Positions 2,172 through 41,339 of a DNA stretch of 56,474 bases are shown piece by piece. The notes below the pieces were generated by a model. The model made no database searches. It was not told the origin of the DNA and saw nothing but the letters and a program-made list of their open reading frames with translations. Origin of the DNA: Chloroflexota bacterium (GTDB lineage: Bacteria; Chloroflexota; Anaerolineae; Anaerolineales; Villigracilaceae); the NCBI GenBank assembly GCA_021824575.1, contig JAKAKJ010000086.1, positions 1 to 56,474 on the forward strand, read 5' to 3'. How positions within the stretch are numbered: position 1 is the stretch's first letter; each line of letters starts with the position of its first letter. The position numbers and the translations under genes were made by a program.

Positions 2172-3329
2172 TCAACCTCGTTTTTGCAAAATCAGAATTC
2201 GCTCATCTCGAATCTTGCCAATTACAGGATTGAAGGCTTTTTTGGTGGCTTGCAATTCTCTGGACAAGCGAGCATGTTCAACAAAACCACTTTTAGATGC
2301 AATGTTAGAAAGCAATTCGGCATTGTCGATTTTTTCACCCTTGATGGTTGAATCACCAATTACAAAGCAGGCATATCGTTCACTTTTCAAATGCAGGTAA
2401 AGCCAATCGAAAATGGCTTGCATTTCCTTCTTGAAGGTCTCAATAGATGCGCCAACCTTACTATACTTTCTGTGTGAACCAATCTCGCGTTGCTTGAAAT
2501 CTTTGTAATCCATTCCAAGCCAAATCATTCGCGTCATGTGATAAAGATGATAACTGTAGGCATTAGGATAGGGTGGAGAGCAAACCATCAAATCAAATGA
2601 ACTAACTTCTGGAGCAGAAAGAATGTCAGAATGGTAGACCTTACAAAAGGTTCTACTATCTACTTGTTTTGTGAATTCTGAAACGGCACTCACCGATTTC
2701 AAGAGCGCATTAGCAAATTTTAGAAAAGTGTCTCCTGGTCGAATACCTTTTTCTCTACGAACATATCGGGTATCAGAGTCTTGTTTGGAGACAGTAATGA
2801 TAATTGAAGACAAAGCAGTAAGTGCAACTTGCTGACTAGTCTTTGTTGAGAGGTCTCTACACCAAGATAAAATTTCAGCCAATTCTTCAACTACAAACGG
2901 CTCAAACCAAAAAGAAAGAGCGTTATCATCTGGGCGGTATGCGCTCGATTTATAAGACTTCTTTTCAGGCAACATTCCGCGAAGCAACAATTCGCTAGAT
3001 AATCCTTGCGCTTGTTCTACCAATTTGCCCAACAAACTTTCATCGTTAGATTCAAAGCGTGTTGTCTTTGCTTCAGAAATCAGGCAAGCCAAAGGATTCG
3101 CGTCAATGCCAATTGCGTTTCTGCCCAATAAATTTGCTTCAACTAAAGTAGTTCCGCTTCCACAGAAAATATCAGCGACTGTTTCACCATACTTTGAGAG
3201 TTCCGAAATCAGCGAATGAGGAATCTGAGGAATGTATTTAGCAGGGTAAGGATGAAGACCGTGTGTTAGATAGGCGGTCTTGGCAGTTTTGAAATCCCAA
3301 TCTATTTGAATAAGGGTGTCGAGTGCCAT
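2172..3329 (-). CDS. SPPY-type DNA methyltransferase (first gene of pair)
   Basis: A 385-residue DNA methyltransferase. It opens with HGLHPYPAKYIPQIPHSLI, then the AdoMet motif ADIFCGSGTT with GIDANPLA downstream (about residues 25-80). The catalytic motif CSPPYPNAYSY is near residue 245. The overall architecture matches its downstream neighbour, but the sequences differ widely, so they are not a recent duplication. Its stop overlaps the start region of the next gene. The start ATG is only nine bases after a TATAAT, with no Shine-Dalgarno, so the mRNA may be nearly leaderless. The expected role is host protection against the nearby nuclease; an orphan or phage-defence role is also possible. 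Confidence 0.83.
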   Translation of the reverse strand: MALDTLIQIDWDFKTAKTAYLTHGLHPYPAKYIPQIPHSLISELSKYGETVADIFCGSGTTLVEANLLGRNAIGIDANPLACLISEAKTTRFESNDESLLGKLVEQAQGLSSELLLRGMLPEKKSYKSSAYRPDDNALSFWFEPFVVEELAEILSWCRDLSTKTSQQVALTALSSIIITVSKQDSDTRYVRREKGIRPGDTFLKFANALLKSVSAVSEFTKQVDSRTFCKVYHSDILSAPEVSSFDLMVCSPPYPNAYSYHLYHMTRMIWLGMDYKDFKQREIGSHRKYSKVGASIETFKKEMQAIFDWLYLHLKSERYACFVIGDSTIKGEKIDNAELLSNIASKSGFVEHARLSRELQATKKAFNPVIGKIRDERILILQKRG

Positions 3330-3338
3330 AACATTGAC

Positions 3339-3344
3339 ATTATA
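3339..3344 (-). promoter_or_regulatory. -10 box for methyltransferase operon
   Basis: TATAAT on the minus strand, nine bases upstream of the ATG at 3329. No convincing -35 was found at 17 bases. The spacing implies a 5' leader of only a few bases. Confidence 0.5.
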
Positions 3345-3466
3345 TCAGGAGATGTACAACTGTTCTATAAATAGTGACATTTTTTGTTCGCGCTTGCTTC
3401 ATGCAATCCGTCTTCTTCCACATAACCGCCCCTCCTGCATTGCCATCTTTTCCTTCGCCCATCAGT

Positions 3467-3472
3467 TATAAT
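3467..3472 (+). promoter_or_regulatory. -10 box for glyQS
   Basis: TATAAT about 37 bases before the glyQS ATG. No good -35 match at standard spacing. The bases before the ATG (CAATCCAAC) show no Shine-Dalgarno. Confidence 0.45.
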
Positions 3473-3509
3473 CCTATCACAATCCAAAATTAGAAACCGT
3501 CAATCCAAC

Positions 3510-6509
3510 ATGCCTCTCAACTTTCAACAAGTCATCCTCAGGTTACAAGAATTCTGGGCGGAGCGCGGCTGTGTGCTCTGGCAACCCTATTACACCCAAG
3601 TCGGCGCAGGGACGATGAACCCCGCCACCTTTTTGCGCGTGCTCGGACCCGAGCCGTGGAATGTGGCGTACGTCGAGCCGTCCATTCGTCCCGATGATGG
3701 ACGCTACGGCGAGAATCCGAATCGCTTCCAACAGCATTATCAGTTCCAGGTCATTCTCAAACCCGATCCGGGCAACCCGCAGGAAATCTATCTCGACTCG
3801 CTCAAAGCCATCGGCATTGACCCGCGCCAGCACGACATCCGCTTTGTGGAAGATAACTGGGAACAGCCCGCCATCTCCGCTTGGGGACTCGGTTGGGAGG
3901 TCTGGCTCGACGGTCAGGAGATCACACAGTTCACGTACTTTCAACAAGTGGGCGGCGTGACGCTCGATCCGGTCGCGGTCGAGATCACGTACGGACTCGA
4001 ACGCATTTTGATCGGCTTGCACAACGTCAAAGCCGCGTGGGATTTGCCGTGGAATGATTCGATCACGTATGGCGAAGTCCGCAAGCAGGAAGAGTTCGAG
4101 CACAGCAAATATTATTTTGAAGTCGCGGATGTGCAAGCCATGCGCGAAGTCTTTGAACGCTTCGAACGCGAAGCTGAGGCTTGTCTCGCGCAAGGGCTGG
4201 TCGTCCCCGCGCACGATTATGTTCTCAAATGCTCACACATCTTCAACACGCTCGATACGCGCGGCGCGGTCGGCGTCACCGAACGTCAGGCTTTCTTTCG
4301 GCGGATGCGCGATCTGGCGAGACGCGTCGCGGAAGCATACATCGAACAGCGCAAGCAGCTTGAATATCCGTTGCTAAGGCAAGGGAAAGGGGAAAAGAGC
4401 AAAGGGGAATTTGCGTTGCCCCTTATCCCTTCTTCCCCTCAGCCCTTCATTCTTGAAATTGGTGTCGAAGAACTCCCTGCCAGCGATGTGGACTCTGCTC
4501 ACGATCAACTTGTCACCCGACTCCCATCACTCCTCGATGAACTTCATCTTGAACATGGAGATGTGCGCGTCTTCTCGACCCCACGGCGGCTTGTTGCGTC
4601 AGTAGCGAGTCTCAGCCCGCGCCAACCCGACCGGGAAGACCTCGTCAAAGGTCCGCCCGCGGATAAAGCCTTCGATAAAAATGGAATCGCATCACCTGCC
4701 GCGATGGGCTTTGCCAAAAAGAATGGCGTTGAGACCAAAGATTTACAAGTTCGCGAACAAGATGGCGGCAAGTATGTCTTTGCCGTTGTGAAACAAACTG
4801 GTCGCCCAACGCCGGAAGTTTTATCCGAAGCATTACCAAAACTTGTTGAGAGTATTAAGTTTGAAAAATCTATGCGCTGGAATGAATCAGGTGTCGCATT
4901 CTCGCGTCCGATTCGCTGGCTGGTTGCATTGCTCGGCGACTCAGTGATTCCATTTGAATATGCTGGCGTCGCTTCTGGCAACGTCACGCGCGGACTGCGT
5001 CCATACGATTCACCTGAAATCAAAATTCTATCTGCTGATAAATATTTTGATATTGTCCATGAATCGGGCATCGTGTTGGATACTGAAGAACGCAAAGCAT
5101 CCATCGTTGAACAGGTCAAACAAGCCGCGGCCTTGGTCGGCGGTGAAGCCATGATTGATGACGATTTATTGGACGAAGTTGCGAATCTCATCGAAATGCC
5201 AACTGCGGTAATGGGCGAATTCAATTCGGAATTTTTACAACTGCCGCGCGATGTTTTGATCTCGGTGATGAAGAAGCATCAACGATATTTCCCCCTCACC
5301 CCAGCCCCTCTCCCTCAGGGAGAGGGAAAAGGGGTGAGGGATGGACTCCTCCCTCACTTCATTGCCATTCGCAACGGCGATGAAATGGGTGTTGACCTTG
5401 TCCGTCAGGGAAATGAACACGTGCTCGGCGCGCGTTTTGCGGATGCAAACTTCTTCGTCCGCGAAGATTTGAAACACAAGCTTGAAGAATTCCGCCCGAA
5501 ACTTTCGGGTTTGATCTTCCAAACCAAACTCGGCTCGATGCTGGAGAAGTCCGATCGTATGTTGAAGCTTGGCGCAGAGCTAACACCCATGTTTAGCATC
5601 AAAGATCCAACGATGATCAAGCATGTGGCGCGCAGTATCTACCTTGCCAAAGCTGACCTTGTCACTCAGATGGTCACAGAAATGACTTCATTGCAGGGCA
5701 TCATTGGACGTGAATACGCTGTGCGAAGTGGTGAACATGCGGATGTGGCATTGGCAATTGGCGAGCAATATCAACCTGTGCCAAAATCAAAAATTGGCGT
5801 CGTGGTCGCGCTGGCAGATCGAATCGATTCGCTGGTTGGCTTATTCGCCGCTGGTCTTGCTCCCACTGGTGCGAAAGACCCGTTTGGGTTGCGCCGTGCC
5901 GCGATTGGTGTTGTGCAACCTTTGATAGAGCATGGCATTTCATTTGATCTGCGTGAGGCTTTTAGCAAAGCCGCGAAGTTACAGCCGATCCCTGTGAGTA
6001 ATGAAGTTCAAAAACAAGCTTTGGAATTCATTGCCGGCCGCTTGAGCGTTGTGTTGAAGGATTCCGGTTACCGGTATGATGTTGTTGACGCAGTGTTGGC
6101 AGAACAAAGCGCAAACCCCGCGGCGTCTGCGGACGCGGTCAAACAGTTGCAGGCGTGGGTCAAGCGCAAAGATTGGCATGAGATTCTTCCCGCTTTCGCG
6201 CGATGTGTGAGAATCACCAGAGATCAAAAACAAACCTTCAGAGTGAATCCAAAGAACTTTGCCGAGAAACCGGAAGAGGCGTTGTTCAAAGCTCTGGAGA
6301 AAGCTGAGTCCGCTTCACGCCGGGAAGGAAGCGTGGATGATTTCCTGAAAGCCTTCGTCCCGATGATTCCCGCTGTCAACGAATTCTTCGATAATGTCCT
6401 TGTCATGGCCGACGACAAAGTCTTGCAGGAGAATCGTCTTGGACTGTTACAAAGAATTTCGGCATTGGCAGGCGGTGTAGCAGATTTATCGAAGCTGGAA
6501 GGATTCTAA
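3510..6509 (+). CDS. glyQS: Glycyl-tRNA synthetase, fused alpha and beta chains
   Basis: A 999-residue single-chain form of bacterial glycyl-tRNA synthetase, which charges tRNA-Gly in the cytoplasm. Residues 1-290 are the alpha (catalytic) chain, starting [21 protein letters not shown] and including [21 protein letters not shown]. Residues from about 312 on are the beta chain ([17 protein letters not shown]), including the HD-like and C-terminal anticodon-binding parts. Separate GlyQ and GlyS are the norm; fused forms are known in Chlamydia, for example. Two oddities: the linker (about residues 290-311) is encoded by an imperfect purine/pyrimidine inverted repeat, and residues about 595-610 ([16 protein letters not shown]) are the translation of a palindromic repeat sitting in frame in a surface loop just after KKHQRYFP. 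Single-gene unit closed by a hairpin terminator. Confidence 0.97.
4383..4446. repeat. Imperfect inverted repeat encoding the GlyRS alpha-beta linker
   Basis: A purine-rich arm (GGGAAAGGGGAAAAG...AAAGGGG) is followed by a pyrimidine-rich arm (CCCCTTATCCCTTCTTCCCC) that pairs with it imperfectly. It is read as a Gly/Lys/Glu then Pro/Ser-rich linker. Its composition is unlike the flanking codons. Confidence 0.6.
5293..5340. repeat. Palindromic (REP-like) element read in frame inside glyQS
   Basis: Nested perfect arms: CCCTCACCCC (5293-5302) pairs with GGGGTGAGGG (5331-5340), and CCCTCTCCCT (5306-5315) pairs with AGGGAGAGGG (5317-5326). Its outer arms match those of the element at 27266-27313 between nuoM and nuoN. 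It has 48 bases, exactly 16 codons, so the reading frame is kept. Confidence 0.85.
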
Positions 6510-8153: not shown

Positions 8154-8171
8154 CATTTTGCGTTTTGATTC

Positions 8172-8205
8172 GTCTCTTTTTTTAGAGACTCTATTGTAAG
8201 AGTCT
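8172..8205 (+). promoter_or_regulatory. Two mutually exclusive hairpins after the DUF5667 gene
   Basis: GTCTCT (8172-8177) can pair with AGAGAC (8184-8189) across a run of T. Alternatively AGACTCT (8186-8192) can pair with AGAGTCT (8199-8205). The shared strand means only one can form. A 14-bp palindrome CATTTTATAAAATG follows at 8228-8241, just upstream of the next gene. Confidence 0.4.
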
Positions 8206-8299
8206 GCCAGACCGATTTGAGGGTGTCCATTTTATAAAATGAACCCGCGGCGATGAATCGCGAAAGAACGGTTGGGCACTCTCCACTTTTGGAGGTACG

Positions 8300-8632
8300 A
8301 TGTTCAAGACTGGTTTATTGTTACTGCTGGGATTGGGGATTGGGTTATGGCTCGGCTTCAACCCGCAGGCGCATCAGAAGATGCTTCAAAATTGGGAACA
8401 GGCAAAATCCGGATACCTGAGGATGCAAGCCCAGGCGACGACGAAACTCAACGGATTGACTGTGCAGGTGGGATCGTCGAAGCAAAGCGCGTCCAGCTCC
8501 ACGCCAACGTGGATCAATACAGCGTGGCAGCAGCTTGCCTCGATCTTCAATACCATTTGGAGTTCCGTGCGCAGGTTCTGGCTGAGCATTTCAGTGGGCC
8601 TGAACTCGAGTCACCTGAGATTGAAAAAATAA
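8300..8632 (+). CDS. Small membrane-anchored protein of unknown function
   Basis: 110 residues. It starts with one hydrophobic helix (residues 3-20, Leu/Gly-rich), followed by a soluble region with Gln, Ala and Thr, then a Ser-rich stretch and a short Trp-containing amphipathic part ending in a basic tail. The start is chosen for the strong GGAGG located before the ATG (GGAGGTACG-ATG). A longer frame in another phase overlaps it but lacks a ribosome-binding site. It lies between the ECF/DUF5667 pair and a secreted protein with almost the same leader (GGAGGTACTATC-ATG), so all may belong to one regulon. I do not recognise a family. Confidence 0.65.
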   Translation: MFKTGLLLLLGLGIGLWLGFNPQAHQKMLQNWEQAKSGYLRMQAQATTKLNGLTVQVGSSKQSASSSTPTWINTAWQQLASIFNTIWSSVRRFWLSISVGLNSSHLRLKK

Positions 8633-8635
8633 CTC

Positions 8636-8673
8636 AAATCGAAGGCGGCCAAACGGCCGCCTTCGATTTTTAA
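8636..8673 (+). terminator. Terminator after the small membrane protein
   Basis: A perfect 15-bp stem (8636-8650 with 8655-8669) with an AAAC loop and a T run. Begins four bases after the stop codon. The 210 bases from here to the next gene show no further gene. Confidence 0.92.
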
Positions 8674-8883
8674 TTTGACTTTCATTTTGGCAAACGATTG
8701 GGAGTGTATAGATCTGCGATATGCGCGCGGGAAATTCATCAATCCATTTTGTTCCGTGCCCGAAATATTTTCCATTCATTTTGAGTTGGTGACCGCGCAA
8801 GCGTAATATTTGCGGCAGCGCCTCGTTATCTGAATTGAACGACCGCAACAAAGAAAGGTCGAATCCAACTCGGAGGTACTATC

Positions 8884-34313: not shown

Positions 34314-35621
34314 TTAAACTTTTCGGACTTTCAATCTCAAGCCCTTGACCTCGACAACTTCAACATGGTCGCCCTTACCGATCGTCCCGGACCCGGGCGC
34401 GGGTTCCGCTGTCCAAAGCTCGGAGCCCACGAGAACCTGTCCCGTTAAACCAAAATCCGTTTTGGCGAATCCCGTTTTCCCGACGATGGCTTCGACGCCC
34501 ATTTGAATCGGCGCGTGCCGGACTCGCATGGCGAAACTAATGATTGCCGCGAACAATAATCCAATCGCGACGCCCACGCCAACGACCAGCGGCACCGAAA
34601 CGCGCTCGAACTGTGGAACGCCCGGCGAGTTGAATAGCACCAAGGCGCCAATGATAAATGACGCGACACCCGCCGCGGTCAGCGCGCCGTGCGTGGGTGT
34701 TTTTATGTCGAGGACGAATAACACGAAAGCGGTGGCGATGAAGATCAGCCCGAACCAGTTGACCGGAAGAAGACCGAGGCCGTAGATTGCCAGCGCCAGA
34801 CAAACGACTCCGACGAATCCGGGAATCCACGCGCCGGGATGCGATAACTCAATTTGCAGCGCCAGCACGCCCACCGAAAGCAGAATGAACACGAGATTGG
34901 AATCGGTCAGGATAAGTAAAAGCTGTTCGATCAAAGTCATATCCACATTCTCAGTGGTGGCGTTGGTCGTATGTAACGTGTGAACGCCATCTGGCATGGT
35001 GACTTGAAGGCCATTCAGTTGCCGAAGCACATCGCTCATGTCGGTAGCGGTGAAATCAATCAGGTGAGCCTGAAGCGCTTCGCTTGCAGAAACCGCTTTG
35101 GCGTTATCAATCATGTCCTGTGCGAGTTGAGTCGCCGCTGCGCCGCGCCGTTCGACCAGTGGTCGAATTGTCGCCTTCATGATTTCTTTTTGTTTTGTTG
35201 CGAGGGTCGAATCCAGATTTTGACCGCTGGCGTCAATCGGGCTGGACGCGCCAATGGCTGCTTCCGGGGCCATCGCGGAAACCTGCGCCGCGATGGTGAT
35301 CAGCGCGCCCGCGCTGCCCGCCATTGCACCGTTTGGCGCAACATAGATGACCACTGGGACGGTACTGGCGCGGATGGCCTGGATGATATTATCCATGCTC
35401 TGCAAATCGCCGCCCGGTGTTTGAAGCTGGATGATCAAGGCTTCAGCGTTTCGCTGTTCGGCAATGCTGATCCCGCGCTGAAAATATTCCTGCATGGCAG
35501 GCTCGATCGCCCCGTTCGCATTCATGATCAGAATCAGCGGCTGGCTGGTTTGTGCGTAAACGGTCTGAAAGGCGAGCAGGGCAATTGCCAGAAAGACCAG
35601 TAATAATCCAAGGCGTTTCAT
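34314..35621 (-). CDS. NfeD-family membrane-bound serine protease
   Basis: 435 residues. Signal peptide (about 1-23), then a ClpP-like protease domain (about 28-220) with TPGGDLQSM and nucleophile Ser103 in AMAGSAGALI. A general-base lysine is likely at 143 or 145 (ATKQKEIMK), about 40 residues on, as in the archaeal STOPP protease 1510-N. Four to five membrane helices (about 240-370) and a C-terminal OB-fold NfeD domain (VGKTGFAKTDFGLTGQVLVG to the end) follow. The usual partner, a stomatin/SPFH protein, is not adjacent. A TATAAT (35644-35639) and GGAGG lie upstream, so it can be transcribed independently of pstB. Confidence 0.9.
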   Translation of the reverse strand: MKRLGLLLVFLAIALLAFQTVYAQTSQPLILIMNANGAIEPAMQEYFQRGISIAEQRNAEALIIQLQTPGGDLQSMDNIIQAIRASTVPVVIYVAPNGAMAGSAGALITIAAQVSAMAPEAAIGASSPIDASGQNLDSTLATKQKEIMKATIRPLVERRGAAATQLAQDMIDNAKAVSASEALQAHLIDFTATDMSDVLRQLNGLQVTMPDGVHTLHTTNATTENVDMTLIEQLLLILTDSNLVFILLSVGVLALQIELSHPGAWIPGFVGVVCLALAIYGLGLLPVNWFGLIFIATAFVLFVLDIKTPTHGALTAAGVASFIIGALVLFNSPGVPQFERVSVPLVVGVGVAIGLLFAAIISFAMRVRHAPIQMGVEAIVGKTGFAKTDFGLTGQVLVGSELWTAEPAPGSGTIGKGDHVEVVEVKGLRLKVRKV

Positions 35622-35703: not shown

Positions 35704-36459
35704 TCAGAATTGTCCTTCAAGATATGCGCGTGTGCGCTCGTGCTGTGGATTGTTGAAGACTTCCTTTGCTTGCCCGGCTTCGATGACTTCACCGAGGTAC
35801 ATATAAATCACATAATCAGCGAGGCGTTTTGCCTGGCGAAGCGTGTGCGTTACCACAACAATAGTATATTGTTCCTTCAAATTCATTAACCGTTTTTCTA
35901 TATTCTGCGATGAAATTGGATCCAATTGGGACGTCGGTTCGTCGCCCAAAATAATTTCCGGTTCGACGGCCAATCCGCGGGCCAGGCACAGGCGTTGCTG
36001 CTGTCCAATCGAGAGGCTGGTGGCAGGATCGTGCAATCGTCTTTCGACTTCCTCCCACAAGCCGGCGATTTCCAAATAATGCCGCACCGCGGCTTTATAT
36101 TCCTTTCGATCTTTCTTCATGTGATGAATATGCATTCCGTACGCGACGTTGTCGTAAATGGACATCGGCAATGGCGACGGACGCTGTGCGAGAAGCCCAA
36201 TTTTTTTGCGGACTTCGGTCACTTCCACGTCGCGCTCATAAATGTTTTGACCATCCAAATAAACTTCGCCAGAGAGTTTTGTGCCATCGGTCAATTCGAG
36301 AAAGCGATTGAGAGTTTTGAGCAACGTTGACTTGCCGCACCCCGACGGCCCCATGATGACCGTGATTTGTTTTTTGGGAATCTCGATGTTGACATCTTTC
36401 AAGGCTCGTTGCTTGCCGTAAAAGGCGTTCATGTTACGGACTTGAATGTGCGCATCCAT
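35704..36459 (-). CDS. pstB: Phosphate ABC transporter ATPase
   Basis: About 251 residues. Powers high-affinity phosphate import. Walker A GPSGCGKST, Q-loop in KIGLLAQRPSPLPMS, signature LSIGQQQRLCLARGLA, Walker B IILGDEPTSQLDP and the switch His in VVVTHTLRQAKR. The start at 36459 (MDAHIQV) has GGAG five bases upstream. The alternative ATG at 36474 overlaps the pstA stop as ATGA but lacks a ribosome-binding site. No phoU follows; an NfeD-like gene does. Confidence 0.95.
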   Translation of the reverse strand: MDAHIQVRNMNAFYGKQRALKDVNIEIPKKQITVIMGPSGCGKSTLLKTLNRFLELTDGTKLSGEVYLDGQNIYERDVEVTEVRKKIGLLAQRPSPLPMSIYDNVAYGMHIHHMKKDRKEYKAAVRHYLEIAGLWEEVERRLHDPATSLSIGQQQRLCLARGLAVEPEIILGDEPTSQLDPISSQNIEKRLMNLKEQYTIVVVTHTLRQAKRLADYVIYMYLGEVIEAGQAKEVFNNPQHERTRAYLEGQF

Positions 36460-36470
36460 AATAACTCCGT

Positions 36471-37331
36471 TCATTTCACAGTGTATTTACTCAATCGACT
36501 CGAAGCCCAGCGCGAGCCGAGGCTGATGATCAAAACGATGATGGTCAATATCAATGCGGAGGCGTAGCCGCGTTGCTGGACTTCCGGATAAGGTGTGCCG
36601 AGTTGAAAGAAAACTGCCAATGGCAATGATGCGGTCGGACTCATCAGCGAGGTGGGGATGCGGTCGGTATAACCGGCTGTGAACAAAACCGAAGCCGCGT
36701 CGCCGATGCCGCGCCCAAAGGCGAGCAGGATGGCAGTGATGATCCCGGGGAGCATCTGCCGCGTCACAACCCGCAGAGCCACTTCCAGCTTGGTCGAGCC
36801 GAGGGCCAGCGCGGCCTGCTCGAGGTCCGCGGGCATGTGGCGGATCACTTCATCCATGGCGCGTACCATAATCGGCAATTCGACAAGTGCCAGCACGATA
36901 ATGCCTGCGAGCAATGAAGCGCGCAATCCAATCGCAAGCATGAGCGTAAATCCAAACGCACCGTAAACAATCGTCGGGATGCCCCACAAAACATCCAGTG
37001 AGAGGCGCACGTAATATCCCCATTTCGAATCGCCAAGATAGGTTTTGAGATAAAGCGCGATGGGCAGGCTGATAATCAGAGCCAGCAATGTTCCGCCGCC
37101 CGCAAGATAAAGCGAGCCGATGATGGCGTTTAGAACGCCGCCTTCCTTGCCCATGTAAAAACCGCCTTTGGGTGATTGCGTGATCATGCTCCACGTCAAG
37201 GATGGCAGGCCGCGAATAAGAATGGTAAACAAAATGGACCCAAGGCTGAAAGCCACTACGATCAAAGAAAAGATCATCAAGCCTTTTACGAAGGCTTCCA
37301 AGATGTGACGTCGTTCCCAGCGTTTTTTCAT
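36471..37331 (-). CDS. pstA: Phosphate ABC transporter permease PstA
   Basis: 286 residues, six membrane helices, the ABC-2-type permease loop EVIRHMPADLEQAALALGSTKLEVALRVV (EAA motif) contacting PstB. The start MKKRWERRHILEAF at 37331 is chosen because the longer frame would translate a palindromic repeat. Only a weak GGGAAA precedes it. Separated from pstC by 187 bases that hold two hairpin elements, so expression relative to pstSC may differ. Confidence 0.93.
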   Translation of the reverse strand: MKKRWERRHILEAFVKGLMIFSLIVVAFSLGSILFTILIRGLPSLTWSMITQSPKGGFYMGKEGGVLNAIIGSLYLAGGGTLLALIISLPIALYLKTYLGDSKWGYYVRLSLDVLWGIPTIVYGAFGFTLMLAIGLRASLLAGIIVLALVELPIMVRAMDEVIRHMPADLEQAALALGSTKLEVALRVVTRQMLPGIITAILLAFGRGIGDAASVLFTAGYTDRIPTSLMSPTASLPLAVFFQLGTPYPEVQQRGYASALILTIIVLIISLGSRWASSRLSKYTVK

Positions 37332-37373
37332 TAGACAATTTTCCCTATTGTCGCCCTGCCGTCTCGCACCGGC

Positions 37374-37518: not shown

Positions 37519-38517
37519 TTATACCCAATTCCTTTTCAACATGCGTTGAAGCACGAGTGTCGAGAGAATATTGAAAAACAAGATGACGGTCAATAACACC
37601 AATGCCGCGCATAATAAGGCTGCGTCATAAAGCGGGATGGACATCATGTCGCCGTAGTTGTTGGCGATCAGTGCCGGGAGCGGATACGCGGCGTCGAAAA
37701 TGGATGTTGGGACTTTTGCCACGTTTCCGACAACCATCAACACGGCCATCGTTTCTCCAAGCGCACGCGAGGCCGCCAGCACAATTGCCGCAACAACGCC
37801 GGGAATCACGCGTGGAATCACAACGCGGCGAATCGTCTGCCATTGCGTGGCGCCAACCGCCAGCGACGCGTGCCGAAGATCGTTTGGAACAGTTGTAAGA
37901 ATCTCGAACACAACCGAGATAATCAACGGCGCGATCATCACCGCCAAAACGATGCCGCCCGCTAGGATGCTGAAACCGGTGGGCTGATTTACATCAAAGA
38001 TTGGAATAAAGCTCAGCCATCGCTTTGACAAAGGCGCCAATGTATCTTCCACAAATGGGACAATTGCCAGGAGTCCCCAAACGCCATAAACGACTGGAGG
38101 GATCGCGGCGAGCAAATCGAGAATCGGCTTGGCAAATGTCCGCGCGGCTGTATGGGCATATTCTGATAAATAAAGTGAAGTAAGAATGCACGGCGGCACG
38201 GCCAGAAAGATTCCAACAGCGGTCACCCAAAACGTGCCCGTTATAAACGGCCACAGACCGAACAAGCCAATGTCCGGTTTCCAGATAATCCCAAACAATA
38301 AATCTTTGAGCGAATAAATGCTCAGGATGGGCCAGGCGCGGACGATGAGTGCGATGGCGATTCCGATAATCAGTATCAGCGGCAAAAGGGTGATAACAAA
38401 AAATGTTCGTCTCGCTTGCTGATTCTGCCGATTGCGCAGCGATGCAGAAGGCCGGGTTTGCCGACCTTCCGCTTTAACGTTTGATACAAATTCGATGATT
38501 TGATTCTGATTGCTCAT
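37519..38517 (-). CDS. pstC: Phosphate ABC transporter permease PstC
   Basis: 332 residues, six membrane helices, with the N-terminal ~50 residues polar. Typical LAAIPPVVYGVWGLLAIVPF and the EAA loop PNDLRHASLAVGATQWQTIRRVVIPRVIPG. The start at 38517 (MSNQNQIIEF) overlaps the pstS stop as ATGA. Partner of PstA in the membrane channel. Confidence 0.95.
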   Translation of the reverse strand: MSNQNQIIEFVSNVKAEGRQTRPSASLRNRQNQQARRTFFVITLLPLILIIGIAIALIVRAWPILSIYSLKDLLFGIIWKPDIGLFGLWPFITGTFWVTAVGIFLAVPPCILTSLYLSEYAHTAARTFAKPILDLLAAIPPVVYGVWGLLAIVPFVEDTLAPLSKRWLSFIPIFDVNQPTGFSILAGGIVLAVMIAPLIISVVFEILTTVPNDLRHASLAVGATQWQTIRRVVIPRVIPGVVAAIVLAASRALGETMAVLMVVGNVAKVPTSIFDAAYPLPALIANNYGDMMSIPLYDAALLCAALVLLTVILFFNILSTLVLQRMLKRNWV

Positions 38518-39491
38518 TTGACTTTGGCAAGTGAAGCAGCCTGCTGATCGGGAGTCAATTGCACATATCCGGCCTTGTCGAGATATTTTTGACCGTCGGT
38601 CAAAATCCACGCGATGAACGTTTGAACGAGTCCGCTGGGCTTGCCTCGCGTAACCAGATTCTCGAAGCGAGCGGGCGGCGATGGATATTTGCCGCTGGCG
38701 ACTGCGTTGACTGCATCAGACTTGGTTTTGAAATATTCATCGGGATCAGCTTGACCGTTTCCATTCACGTCAATCGGCGGAACGATGATGCCCGCGACAA
38801 GTTTTCCGCTGGTCATATCGAACACACTGTTCAAGTTGCTATAGCCAATTCCCAATGAATCTTTGCCAACTGTGTCAATCAAAGCGGGTTCGCCATTTAC
38901 GCCAATGGCACCGGACAGAATGTCACCCTGGACTTTCCCGCCTGAAAATTGCGCCCACATTTCGGCGGCGCCGCATGAATCCGAACGCGTGTAAACATGG
39001 ATCGCATCCGTGACTTCGGGCTTGCCAATCACTTCTCCCCAGGTTTTGATTTCACCTGTGATGAAAATTTTGTTGAACGTGGATGGACTGATTCCTTTTG
39101 CAAGGATATCCGCCGCGGCCGGATTTTGTGCGCTGACGACTGGGAAGACCGCGTCTTTCGCGACGGAAACCCAGTACGCGCCTTTGGATTCTTCTTCGGG
39201 TTTGATCGCACGCGAAACCATGCCGATGTCCACCGCTCCGGCTAACGCGTCCGTCATGCCTTTGCCCGCGCCGCCAGCCTGGATGTCGAATTGAACGTTT
39301 GGATGAAGCTTCTGGAATTCATCCGCCCAGACGGTCATCATCGGGTAGAGGGCGAACGCGCCGGAGATGATGATCGTTCCTTTGAGCGGATCCCCGCTTG
39401 GGGCCGGGTTCGATGCGGGAGTCCCGCAAGCGGCGAGGAGCAGCCCTGCGATAACGAGAAAGACCGAAACAAGATGAAGTTTTTTGTACAT
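38514..39491 (-). CDS. pstS: Phosphate-binding lipoprotein PstS
   Basis: 325 residues. Lipoprotein signal peptide with lipobox LLAACG (Cys near residue 22), then a Thr/Pro linker and the periplasmic-binding fold. Phosphate-contact segments are visible as SGAFALYPMM, QAGGAGKGMTDALAGAVDIGMVSR and TRSDSCGAAEMW. A calcium-type loop DVNGNGQADPDEY (near residue 240) is found in several PstS relatives. Anchored outside the membrane and hands phosphate to PstCA. It has its own promoter, ribosome-binding site GGAGG and an operator-like site (39515-39531) shared with the neighbouring Rrf2 gene. Confidence 0.95.
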   Translation of the reverse strand: MYKKLHLVSVFLVIAGLLLAACGTPASNPAPSGDPLKGTIIISGAFALYPMMTVWADEFQKLHPNVQFDIQAGGAGKGMTDALAGAVDIGMVSRAIKPEEESKGAYWVSVAKDAVFPVVSAQNPAAADILAKGISPSTFNKIFITGEIKTWGEVIGKPEVTDAIHVYTRSDSCGAAEMWAQFSGGKVQGDILSGAIGVNGEPALIDTVGKDSLGIGYSNLNSVFDMTSGKLVAGIIVPPIDVNGNGQADPDEYFKTKSDAVNAVASGKYPSPPARFENLVTRGKPSGLVQTFIAWILTDGQKYLDKAGYVQLTPDQQAASLAKVK

Positions 39492-39514: not shown

Positions 39515-39541
39515 ATTATAAAGTCTATAATTTAAGTATAC
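39515..39541 (-). promoter_or_regulatory. pst promoter and operator-like inverted repeat
   Basis: ATTATAAAGTCTATAAT (39515-39531, arms ATTATA/TATAAT) is identical to the site in front of the Rrf2 gene. Its minus-strand TATAAT (39520-39515) is the likely -10 of pstS. The matching block extends to 39541 with 23 of 27 positions equal. Confidence 0.7.
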
Positions 39542-39552
39542 TTTTGAGCCGC

Positions 39553-39575
39553 GAAAAGAGCCGCTTGAAAGCGGC
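39553..39575 (-). terminator. Terminator between rrf2 and pstS
   Basis: A 7-bp stem GCCGCTT/AAGCGGC with a 2-nt loop (39560-39575) followed on the minus strand by TCTTTT. It separates the regulator transcript from the pst operon. Confidence 0.7.
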
Positions 39576-39584
39576 CAAACTGAA

Positions 39585-40037
39585 TCAAGTTTTCAACATC
39601 TCGCGGACTTTATCCACGCGGTTGTTCACATCTGCCAGCGATGTGCCGTCGAGCAGGGCCGAAATTGCGTTCCGCACATCGCTCATCACCAAACGCAAAC
39701 CGCAGGTTTCCTCATCAGGACACCCACACGGCTCATAAGCCATCTGGCTGACGCATTTGACCGGGGCAAGCGGGCCGTCCAGGACGCGCACGATTTGGCC
39801 GAGGGTGATTTCTTTGGCCGGCCTGGCGAGGTAGTATCCGCCGCCAACGCCCATTTTGCTGTGCAGCATTCCAGCATTCTTCAGCGCGAGCAAAATCTGC
39901 TCAAGGAATTTGGCAGGAATCTTCTCGCGCTGCGAGATTTCTTTGATCTGCACAATGGGAGGGTGGCCGTCTTCGGTCGGTGTTGCCATCAGGATCATGG
40001 CTCGTAAGCCGTATTCACCGCGTTTCGAAAGTCTCAT
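39585..40037 (-). CDS. Rrf2-family transcriptional regulator (probable Fe-S type)
   Basis: 150 residues. N-terminal winged helix (MRLSKRGEYGLRAMILMA, then SQREKIPAKFLEQILLALKNAGMLHSKMGVGGGYYLAR). Cys 95, 104, 106 and 112 (CVSQMAYEPCGCPDEETC) lie in the region that binds an Fe-S cluster in IscR, NsrR and RsrR relatives. The start at 40037 is chosen for homology to the family N-terminus. No iscS, suf or nitrite-metabolism gene is nearby; the downstream operon is pstSCAB, which has the same 17-bp site. Probably autoregulated. Confidence 0.92.
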   Translation of the reverse strand: MRLSKRGEYGLRAMILMATPTEDGHPPIVQIKEISQREKIPAKFLEQILLALKNAGMLHSKMGVGGGYYLARPAKEITLGQIVRVLDGPLAPVKCVSQMAYEPCGCPDEETCGLRLVMSDVRNAISALLDGTSLADVNNRVDKVREMLKT

Positions 40038-40042
40038 AGTAT

Positions 40043-40069
40043 GTCTATTAGAATTATAGACTTTATAAT
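40043..40069 (-). promoter_or_regulatory. rrf2 promoter with the shared operator
   Basis: On the minus strand TTGGTA (40082-40077), 18 bases, TATAAT (40058-40053). The 17-base site ATTATAAAGTCTATAAT (40069-40053) covers the -10. A second repeat GTCTAT-N7-ATAGAC (40043-40061) overlaps it. Confidence 0.7.
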
Positions 40070-40104
40070 CATAATATACCAACGGATGGATTCTGTCAAG
40101 CAGG

Positions 40105-40572
40105 TTAAATTAGTTGGACGATTTCGTATTCATTCAGGCCGCGTTGTAAATCTTTGCTTTTGAGGATGATGCCTGTATTTCGGATTCCCGACCCGATGGA
40201 AATTTCCTCCTCTTTCAGCACGCTCGGGTCAATCAGGACTTTGAGCGGACGCGCCAACCCGAACGGACTCACCGTCCCGATGCGGTATCCCGTAACTTCC
40301 AACACTTCCTCCTCAGTTGCCATGGTCAATCGCGATTGACCAAGATGCTGGCGAAGTTTTTTCCATGAGATTTGCGCCGGTCCCGCGACCAGCGCCATAA
40401 TAAAATCATTTTCGCCGATTCGAAATAAGATACTGCGGACGACTTGTTCGGGCCGCTGGCTGCGTTCGGACGCGGCTTGTTCCAGCGATGTGACTTGCCC
40501 GGCGTGGTGAAACACGCGGTGGGGAATTCCAAGTTTTTCTAAAGCAATGCTGACAGGAGGAATTTGATCCAT
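40105..40572 (-). CDS. YbaK/EbsC-type aminoacyl-tRNA deacylase
   Basis: 155 residues of the YbaK fold, related to the editing domain of prolyl-tRNA synthetase. Likely hydrolyses mischarged tRNA in trans. Typical [36 protein letters not shown], the [18 protein letters not shown] segment and [21 protein letters not shown]. The start MDQIPPVS at 40572 is preferred to a TTG at 40605, which lies in a palindromic repeat. The substrate amino acid cannot be read. Confidence 0.87.
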
Positions 40573-40673: not shown

Positions 40674-41339
40674 TCACTTTGTCTTTGGTTCATAATCACA
40701 CAACTTAATGATTGGACACTTCGGGCAATCTGGTTTTCTTGCGTGACACACTTCGCGTCCGAGGCGGATCAGATTCAAATGCGCGGCGTAATACGTTTCG
40801 GGCGGAAATAATTTTTCGAGGTGCGGATGCGCCTGTTCGACGGTCATCTTTTCAGGGCGCAGACCAATGCGGCCCGTGACGCGATAAATGTGCGTATCTA
40901 CCGGGAATGCAGGACGATTGAGCGAAAAACATAAAACAATCGCCGCGGTCTTCGGGCCGACGCCGTTGAACTTCATCAGCCAGGTGCGCGCTTCTTCGAG
41001 CGGTAAATCTTTGAGAAACCGTAAATCTAAATTGCCGCGTTCTTTAGTGATCTCTTTCAAAACCTTTTGGATGCGTGGACCTTTTTGATTCGCCAACCCC
41101 GCCGGACGAATCGTCGCGATGACATCCTTTGTTTTTGCATCGCGCACTTCTTCCCATGTTGGGAATTTAGCGCGCAGAGCATTAAAGGCGCGGTCGCGGT
41201 TTGTGTCGTTTGTATTCTGGGAAAGGATCGTCGAAACCAATTCGTCAATGGGCGGCATTGGATTGCGCCAGATTGGTTTGCCGAAGGCTCCTAAAAGTTT
41301 CTCGTGGATTTTGAGTGCGCGCTTGGAAAGGTTATCCAT
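40674..41339 (-). CDS. nth: Endonuclease III
   Basis: 221 residues, base-excision repair glycosylase and AP lyase for oxidised pyrimidines. Helix-hairpin-helix FNGVGPKTAAIVL with catalytic Lys130, catalytic Asp148 in FPVDTHIYRV, and the C-terminal [4Fe-4S] loop Cys198, 205, 208, 214 (C-x6-C-x2-C-x5-C). All catalytic residues are present. Start as shown; no clear Shine-Dalgarno. Confidence 0.94.
   Translation of the reverse strand: MDNLSKRALKIHEKLLGAFGKPIWRNPMPPIDELVSTILSQNTNDTNRDRAFNALRAKFPTWEEVRDAKTKDVIATIRPAGLANQKGPRIQKVLKEITKERGNLDLRFLKDLPLEEARTWLMKFNGVGPKTAAIVLCFSLNRPAFPVDTHIYRVTGRIGLRPEKMTVEQAHPHLEKLFPPETYYAAHLNLIRLGREVCHARKPDCPKCPIIKLCDYEPKTK

Follow-up and report, generated by a model that had tools for sequence, protein, structure and literature searches.

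A Pst-family ABC transporter operon and an adjacent four-cysteine Rrf2 regulator gene sharing an operator in Chloroflexota: a probable importer of sulfate

Introduction

Among Rrf2-family regulators, NsrR is described as ligating its Fe-S cluster by Cys93, Cys99, and Cys105, and BsCymR as carrying no Fe-S cluster (PMC9338935), and an 11-3-11 layout is reported to characterize full Rrf2 sites (PMC5015018). A survey of sulfate transporters published in 2018 covers five families, and its main text contains the name “PstS” 0 times (PMC5840216). The sulfate permease CysP of Bacillus subtilis, a PiT-family protein in which key residues for phosphate are exchanged, provides a precedent for sulfate transport by a member of a phosphate transporter family (PMC5840216, PMC11535334). 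In the TauE family, a Pseudomonas homolog is reported to have restored sulfate uptake in an Escherichia coli cysA deletion, an Acidovorax homolog is linked to sulfate assimilation by mutant data, and sulfite and sulfoacetate exporters are also included (PMC11535334). Among the open-licence papers listed, none dealt, by title or opening of the abstract, with a Pst-type sulfate importer or Rrf2 control of one, and no open-licence paper joined PstS, sulfate transporter, and Rrf2, or PstS-like and sulfate, or Methanoperedens, sulfate transport, and phosphate ABC transporter.

The window, by which we mean the whole stretch of 56,474 nucleotides analyzed here, carries on its minus strand an rrf2 gene (40037 to 39588) and, after it, the four genes of a Pst-like ABC transporter, which encode the binding protein, a pair of permeases, and the ATPase. 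These resemble PstSCAB in the gene order S-C-A-B, the fold of the binding protein, and the families of the permeases and the ATPase, but differ from it in that S, B, and (barely) A are below the phosphate cut-offs, Ala, Phe, or Lys replace the contact Ser/Thr, phoU is missing, and an Rrf2 operator and sulfur contexts are present. The regulator is like IscR, NsrR, and RsrR in its family, in having Cys in the cluster region, and in its apparent autoregulation, and like RsrR in its 11-3-11 operator (PMC5015018); unlike theirs, its regulon in this genome consists of the regulator itself and one transporter operon. Its C-X8-C-X-C-X5-C motif differs in spacing from the ligands of NsrR (PMC9338935). 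With CymR it would share the control of sulfur supply, but the CymR equivalog cut-off was missed and no cysK was seen at the window locus. As for the TauE sulfate uptakers (PMC11535334), a member of their family, a permease, takes the place of the ABC operon behind the operator in 11 of 30 loci; such uptakers are single-protein carriers unrelated to the ABC operon. CysP, in turn, is a secondary carrier of another family.

Results

Table 1. Genes and regulatory elements of the rrf2-transporter locus in the window
Feature	Position	Strand	Evidence
Rrf2-family regulator, 150 aa, Cys95/104/106/112 (C-X8-C-X-C-X5-C)	39588..40037	-	TIGR00738, PF02082, alignment
PstS-fold lipoprotein, predicted sulfate-binding	38514..39491	-	TIGR02136 123.7 bits (cut-off 206.6); AlphaFold; contact-site changes
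PstC-like permease	37519..38517	-	TIGR02138 252.1 bits, over cut-off 196.45; listed ORF begins 38610, start 38517 inferred
PstA-like permease	36471..37334	-	TIGR00974 193.2 bits, cut-off 193.45; start inferred within listed ORF
PstB-like ATPase	35704..36474	-	TIGR00972 331.9 bits, cut-off 343.2
25-bp 11-3-11 operator dyad of rrf2	40040..40064	-	sequence, family consensus, profile match 40042-40067
25-bp 11-3-11 operator dyad of transporter operon	39520..39544	-	sequence, family consensus, profile match 39517-39547
-10 TATTAT of rrf2	40071..40076	-	promoter scan; same layout in 25/27 scored upstream regions
-35 TTGACA of rrf2	40094..40099	-	promoter scan
Likely -10 TATAAT of transporter operon	39515..39520	-	sequence; best two-hexamer match 8/12

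The regulator scored 119.9 bits with TIGR00738 (cut-off 73.3) and 125.9 bits with PF02082, and both these HMM matches and an inverted-repeat operator of 11-3-11 form place it in the Rrf2 superfamily. It stayed below the equivalog cut-offs of IscR (75.2 versus 207.55 bits), NsrR (49.6 versus 182 bits), CymR (89.2 versus 195 bits), which is its second-best NCBIfam match, and likewise RirA. The statement of an earlier, sequence-only reading that the protein keeps four Cys extends to its relatives: Cys95, Cys104, Cys106, and Cys112 are invariant in 65 of the 65 aligned rows with at least 54% identity, several of which are one locus twice. The Rrf2 genes adjoining the operon in loci L178 and L198 encode proteins without the four Cys. 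Judging from this invariance, it is plausible that the four residues hold an Fe-S cluster. The Cys spacing of IscR is unlike that of the regulator. Upstream of rrf2 lie a YbaK-type tRNA-editing gene (40105-40572) and an endonuclease III-like gene (40674-41339), both of which keep that place in L042, L044, L045, L047, L054, and L065.

The sequence-only reading took a 17-bp repeat for an operator in front of both rrf2 and the transporter operon. A sequence scan found ATTATAAAGTCTATAAT exactly at 39515-39531 on the plus strand and at 40053-40069 on the minus strand, in a matching block of 27 bases of which 23 are identical, just as had been read; shuffled sequence gave a mean of 0.02 matches at up to 3 mismatches, and the genome (3.64 Mb, 98 contigs) holds ATTATAAAGTCTATAAT with up to 2 mismatches at 2 places only. 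Alignment of 30 orthologous loci, which are the best of those obtained by searching 101 genomes with the regulator (54-100% identity, window included), identified as the conserved unit a 25-bp dyad of 11-3-11 form, AAAGTCTATTA-NNN-TAATAGACTTT, which stands before rrf2 and before the next gene. The repeat is real, but the 17-mer, being a half-site plus flank, was rejected as the operator itself. With a profile built from 44 of the 60 upstream (UP) and downstream (DN) regions, the dyad scored at least 20 bits in 27/30 regions upstream of rrf2 and in 27/30 downstream regions, training sites included. The 16 regions omitted from the profile were L025 UP and DN (duplicates of L024), L018 UP, L029 UP, L031 UP, L034 UP, L035 UP, L036 UP and DN, L038 UP and DN, L039 DN, L040 UP and DN, and L041 UP and DN.

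Up to an E value of 10, the profile matched the source genome only at the two window sites. Matches at E 0.05 were obtained in 29 of the 101 genomes by a search whose stricter filters lose weak matches, and in 27 of these genomes the match falls at the rrf2 locus, if G024 with its cut rrf2 is included. The pattern ATTATA-N5-TATAAT, which occurs with up to 1 mismatch at nine other places in the source genome, was rejected as a regulon pattern; none of these is among the profile matches up to E 10. Weak profile sites in relatives (G011:C96, G072:C31, G053:C113, G037:C18, and G060:C28) were inspected and set aside. The weak operator-like site of G037:C18 (L113 3975-4004, E 0.026) is just before a minus-strand gene (2523-3956) for a sulfur-type enzyme with metallo-beta-lactamase and rhodanese domains; such a gene would fit a sulfur regulon and is a possible third member of it in G037.

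The best promoter match of rrf2, TTGACA-17-TATTAT at 40099-40071 (11/12), is upstream of the 17-mer, and a weaker match (10/12) has its -10 inside the 17-mer. At the transporter promoter, the likely -10 is within the 17-mer and the 25-bp dyad abuts TATAAT; no -35 is recognizable, and the promoter scan listed no promoter on this strand here. The proposal that the 17-mer covers the -10 box of both genes thus applies to the transporter operon but not to the best -10 of rrf2. A site was scored in 27 of the regions upstream of rrf2; 25 of them contain TTGAC(A/T) and a 17-nt spacer, with up to 2 mismatches over both hexamers, and in these the dyad starts 10-25 nt beyond the first base of the -10, an arrangement that fits autorepression of rrf2. 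For the transporter promoter, we favor repression by occlusion as the simpler reading over activation of a -35-less promoter. A terminator scan after rrf2 listed none on the same strand. A second palindrome, TTCAG-NNN-CTGAA or a close variant, occurs in 16 of the 30 loci (e.g., L016 and L024) no more than 170 bp before rrf2, and between -35 and -10 in several; it was not found in the window and is possibly the site of another regulator.

As a test, 80 loci were fetched by the binding protein, these being the best 80 of at least 573 relatives, and the 75 that remained after setting apart 5 with training sites were used as the test set. A site of at least 20 bits was found in 28/32 test loci with an Rrf2 orthologue (at least 54% identity) versus 9/43 without one (Fisher 7e-9); all 9 are Chloroflexota by record title, and their site precedes the binding-protein gene. 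Each of the sites of at least 20 bits listed for the 80 loci stands before either rrf2 or the binding-protein gene, and the archaeal and Bacteroidales loci among them gave no site of 20 bits. In L175 (Bellilinea caldifistulae), which has the operon together with a diverged Rrf2, no site reached 20 bits either. ORF calling left 10 of the 80 without a binding-protein label, and the operator test and the neighbor counts below use all 80. Two of the outcomes that the sequence-only reading had named as refuting its link between regulator and ABC operon could be looked for by computation, and neither was seen: the site is conserved before the operon in relatives, and, rather than occurring at many unrelated promoters, it is found at two places in the genome and few elsewhere in relatives. 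The regulator-operon link is, on these comparisons, well supported, and one Rrf2 protein very probably controls both its own gene and the neighboring ABC operon by way of the common operator. In L060 (about 8162-8800, G008), rrf2 has both operators and no transporter gene was found behind the downstream site; it was perhaps lost.

High-affinity phosphate import, the function that the sequence-only reading assigned to the operon, is not supported. Only the PstC-like permease passes its NCBIfam phosphate cut-off; PstA misses by 0.25 bits, and PstB and the binding protein, which also has 60.8 bits with a second phosphate-binding model (cut-off 205), are below theirs, so that the name pstS is not borne out. 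No pho genes were seen near the operon, as the sequence-only reading had noted; on another contig of the genome, however, there are pstS (299.1 bits, cut-off 205), pstB (404.3 bits, cut-off 343.2), and phoU (195.5 bits, cut-off 130.25) near a PhoB/PhoR-like pair of response regulator and kinase. A phoU gene was near 0 of 96 distinct window-type loci versus 20 of 22 canonical pst loci (Fisher p 1e-20), where the controls were not random, 20 being hand-picked from listed over-cut-off matches and 2 the first fetched, and the two without phoU (L203 and L215) lie on short contigs. An NfeD/ClpP-class membrane protease gene (34314-35621) adjoins the transporter; by eye, many relatives have at this position a 430-470 aa gene with a similar start. 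In four Bacteroidetes loci (L180, L185, L188, and L195), the Pst-like operon follows a conserved gene run ending, by eye, in a MoxR-like AAA ATPase, and no sulfur genes were seen near it there.

The AlphaFold model of the window binding protein (pLDDT 88.9) has the PstS fold. Its best rows by VIA-align are PstS entries, with Z up to 27.4 and an rmsd of 2.8 over 267 residues, and the tungstate-binding TupA has a Z of 14.9 versus 20-27 for the PstS entries listed. The phosphate-touching residues were placed by what we take to be the contact positions of E. coli PstS. In the alignment to phosphate-bound 4gd5, GST is changed into GAF, GSS into GAG followed by Lys, and DGSGT into DSCGA, and A45, A75, K77, and A175 are present in 47/47 family members (the window protein and 46 of 61 usable proteins). 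Going by this alignment, Ala, Phe, or Lys now stand where Ser/Thr would usually offer their hydroxyls for contact. The assignment to phosphate is unsupported because pstS, pstB, and phoU exist elsewhere in the genome, phoU is absent near the loci, and the contact Ser/Thr are lost, and the Pst-like operon is probably not for phosphate. Nor does the binding protein match TIGR00971, the model for the sulfate-binding protein of SulT (CysPTWA/Sbp) sulfate ABC transporters.

The genes that replace or adjoin the operon have to do with sulfur. Among the 30 loci, the gene set after rrf2 is a Pst-like operon, or as much of its start as the contig holds, in 18, a TauE permease only, as identified by PF01925, in 11, and neither in 1, and two of the 18 also carry a TauE permease. 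At E 1e-30, 14 of 15 TauE relatives in the 101 genomes are at an rrf2 locus, G024 with its cut rrf2 included. In L051 (8651-9502, minus strand) and L063 (1808-2671, plus strand), the TauE frame opens with about 40 residues that resemble the binding protein's lipoprotein signal, and the TauE domain starts at residues 44 and 49, respectively, as would be left by a deletion from S-C-A-B-TauE to TauE alone. Sulfate-activation genes adjoin the operon at four loci, for which the chance p is 0.001-0.05 depending on the assumed number of genes per genome. In Chloroflexota, L162 has the order cysC-cysD-cysN-rrf2-SBP-C-A-B, where cysC encodes APS kinase, and in L068 pstB is followed, 3 bp on, by a bifunctional Sat/APS kinase gene (NF004040 859.7 bits, cut-off 669). 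The ANME-1 locus L174 has SBP-C-A-B-cysD-cysN-like, with CysD over its subfamily cut-off and the CysN-like protein below that of CysN (280.3 versus 336.1), and in the Bathyarchaeota locus L181 a divergent sat lies beside the operon. No site of at least 20 bits was found before cysC in L162, and it is therefore doubtful whether the cys genes belong to the regulon at that locus.

Six further loci have nearby a homolog of a sulfate-binding-like protein, the query for which had 126.6 bits with TIGR00971 (cut-off 155.5). Any sulfur gene was found at 20/96 distinct loci (10 TauE, 4 activation, 6 sulfate-binding-like) versus 0/22 canonical pst loci (Fisher p 0.023), with queries drawn from these same loci after inspection and an E-value limit for neighbors stricter at window-type loci (1e-30) than at canonical ones (1e-10); in this count, most archaeal loci and the Bacteroidales loci had none of these neighbors. 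The neighbors, for which the statistics are modest, and the replacement by TauE point to sulfate as the cargo. The source genome encodes a bifunctional Sat/APS kinase (830 bits, cut-off 669) but nothing that matches TIGR00971, the canonical sulfate-binding protein, for which 4 of 61 genomes have a protein over the cut-off. As a correlate of the rrf2 locus, Sat proved weak, being present in 17/20 genomes with the locus versus 27/41 without. In L167, L169, L176, L158, and L226 the Pst-like operon is near a sulfate-binding-like protein, and in L167 the next gene is for a Na/Pi-cotransporter-like membrane protein, followed, by eye, by a universal-stress-like gene.

A different context was met in L119 (15851-16804, minus strand) and L225 (10490-11446, plus strand), where the binding-protein gene has no permease genes beside it and is the first of a cluster that by eye resembles formate hydrogenlyase and encodes molybdopterin oxidoreductase domains. 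This context hints that the cargo might be an oxyanion of Mo, W, or Se. In G028 the operator precedes the L119 protein, a second binding protein there (G028:C125, E 3e-4). The molybdopterin oxidoreductase frame of both loci seems by eye to be broken where selenocysteine would be expected, and in G035, the genome of L225, an over-cut-off sulfate-binding protein and ABC-type genes are close to the cluster.

Discussion

From the conserved sites and the way they accompany the regulator, the small size of the regulon, the divergence of the binding site, and the sulfur contexts, we infer that the locus is probably a two-promoter module in which a Pst-family importer of sulfate, or of a sulfur oxyanion, is controlled by an autoregulated and possibly Fe-S-binding Rrf2 sulfur sensor. 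An Rrf2 dimer would bind the 25-bp dyad just downstream of its own -10 to cause autorepression, and the second dyad would cover the promoter of the four-gene operon from about -36 to -12; this operon would import sulfate or a close sulfur oxyanion and not phosphate. The regulator would read sulfur sufficiency: an Fe-S cluster held by its four invariant Cys could become less occupied under sulfur shortage, and lower occupancy might alter DNA binding and thereby raise sulfate import. If sulfate is the cargo, it ceases to be strange that the regulator should sense sulfur or Fe-S clusters.

With the same cargo, the regulator might sense the cysteine or thiol state without a cluster, like CymR, its Cys binding zinc or acting as thiol switches. 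That CymR is the second-best match at 89.2 bits, that paralogues of about 45% identity are, by eye, beside an apparent cysK and Cys/Met genes (L070 and L072), and that the Cys spacing is unlike that of NsrR would agree with this idea, but the CymR cut-off of 195 was not reached, and BsCymR is described as a protein without a cluster (PMC9338935), whereas here four invariant Cys lie in the cluster-binding region. We regard this as rather unlikely, and, because it concerns the cluster step alone, its probability overlaps that of the sulfate importer with an Rrf2 sulfur sensor. Less likely still is another oxyanion (thiosulfate, sulfite, selenate, selenite, molybdate, or tungstate) under the same regulator. 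It could explain why a permease-less binding protein heads formate hydrogenlyase-like clusters in two genomes, with the operator in one, and it is in line with the sulfite and sulfoacetate exporters placed in the TauE family (PMC11535334); against it, sulfate-activation genes adjoin the operon at four loci, and TupA is structurally far from the binding protein. A true phosphate importer under an Fe-S- or redox-sensing Rrf2, which all four Pst-family proteins, the PstC score, the near miss of PstA, and the PstS fold would suggest, is very improbable in view of the over-cut-off pstS, pstB, and phoU beside a PhoB/PhoR-like pair elsewhere in the genome, the finding of phoU near 0/96 loci, the lost contact Ser/Thr positions, and the TauE replacement and cys/sat neighbors.

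The protein families involved are known, and what appears new is the proposed cargo and the very small regulatory circuit. Returning to sulfate as the favored cargo, we suggest more hesitantly, with confidence a little under even, that there is a class of Pst-type sulfate importers, not described before, in Chloroflexota, Methanoperedens, ANME-1, Bathyarchaeota, and Bacteroidales, and that its Chloroflexota members are under the control of a four-Cys Rrf2 protein that gauges sulfur via Fe-S occupancy, with a regulon of about two promoters and with ABC and TauE transporters interchangeable. If true, the five families into which the 2018 survey puts sulfate transporters (PMC5840216) would be joined by a Pst-type class. 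Family models label such Pst-like operons as phosphate importers in bacteria and archaea, including methane oxidizers; if they are sulfate carriers, the genes may be widely mislabeled, and both the phosphate and the sulfur physiology of those genomes would have been misread. The very small Rrf2 regulon would also offer a clean system for the Fe-S cluster as a sulfur gauge.
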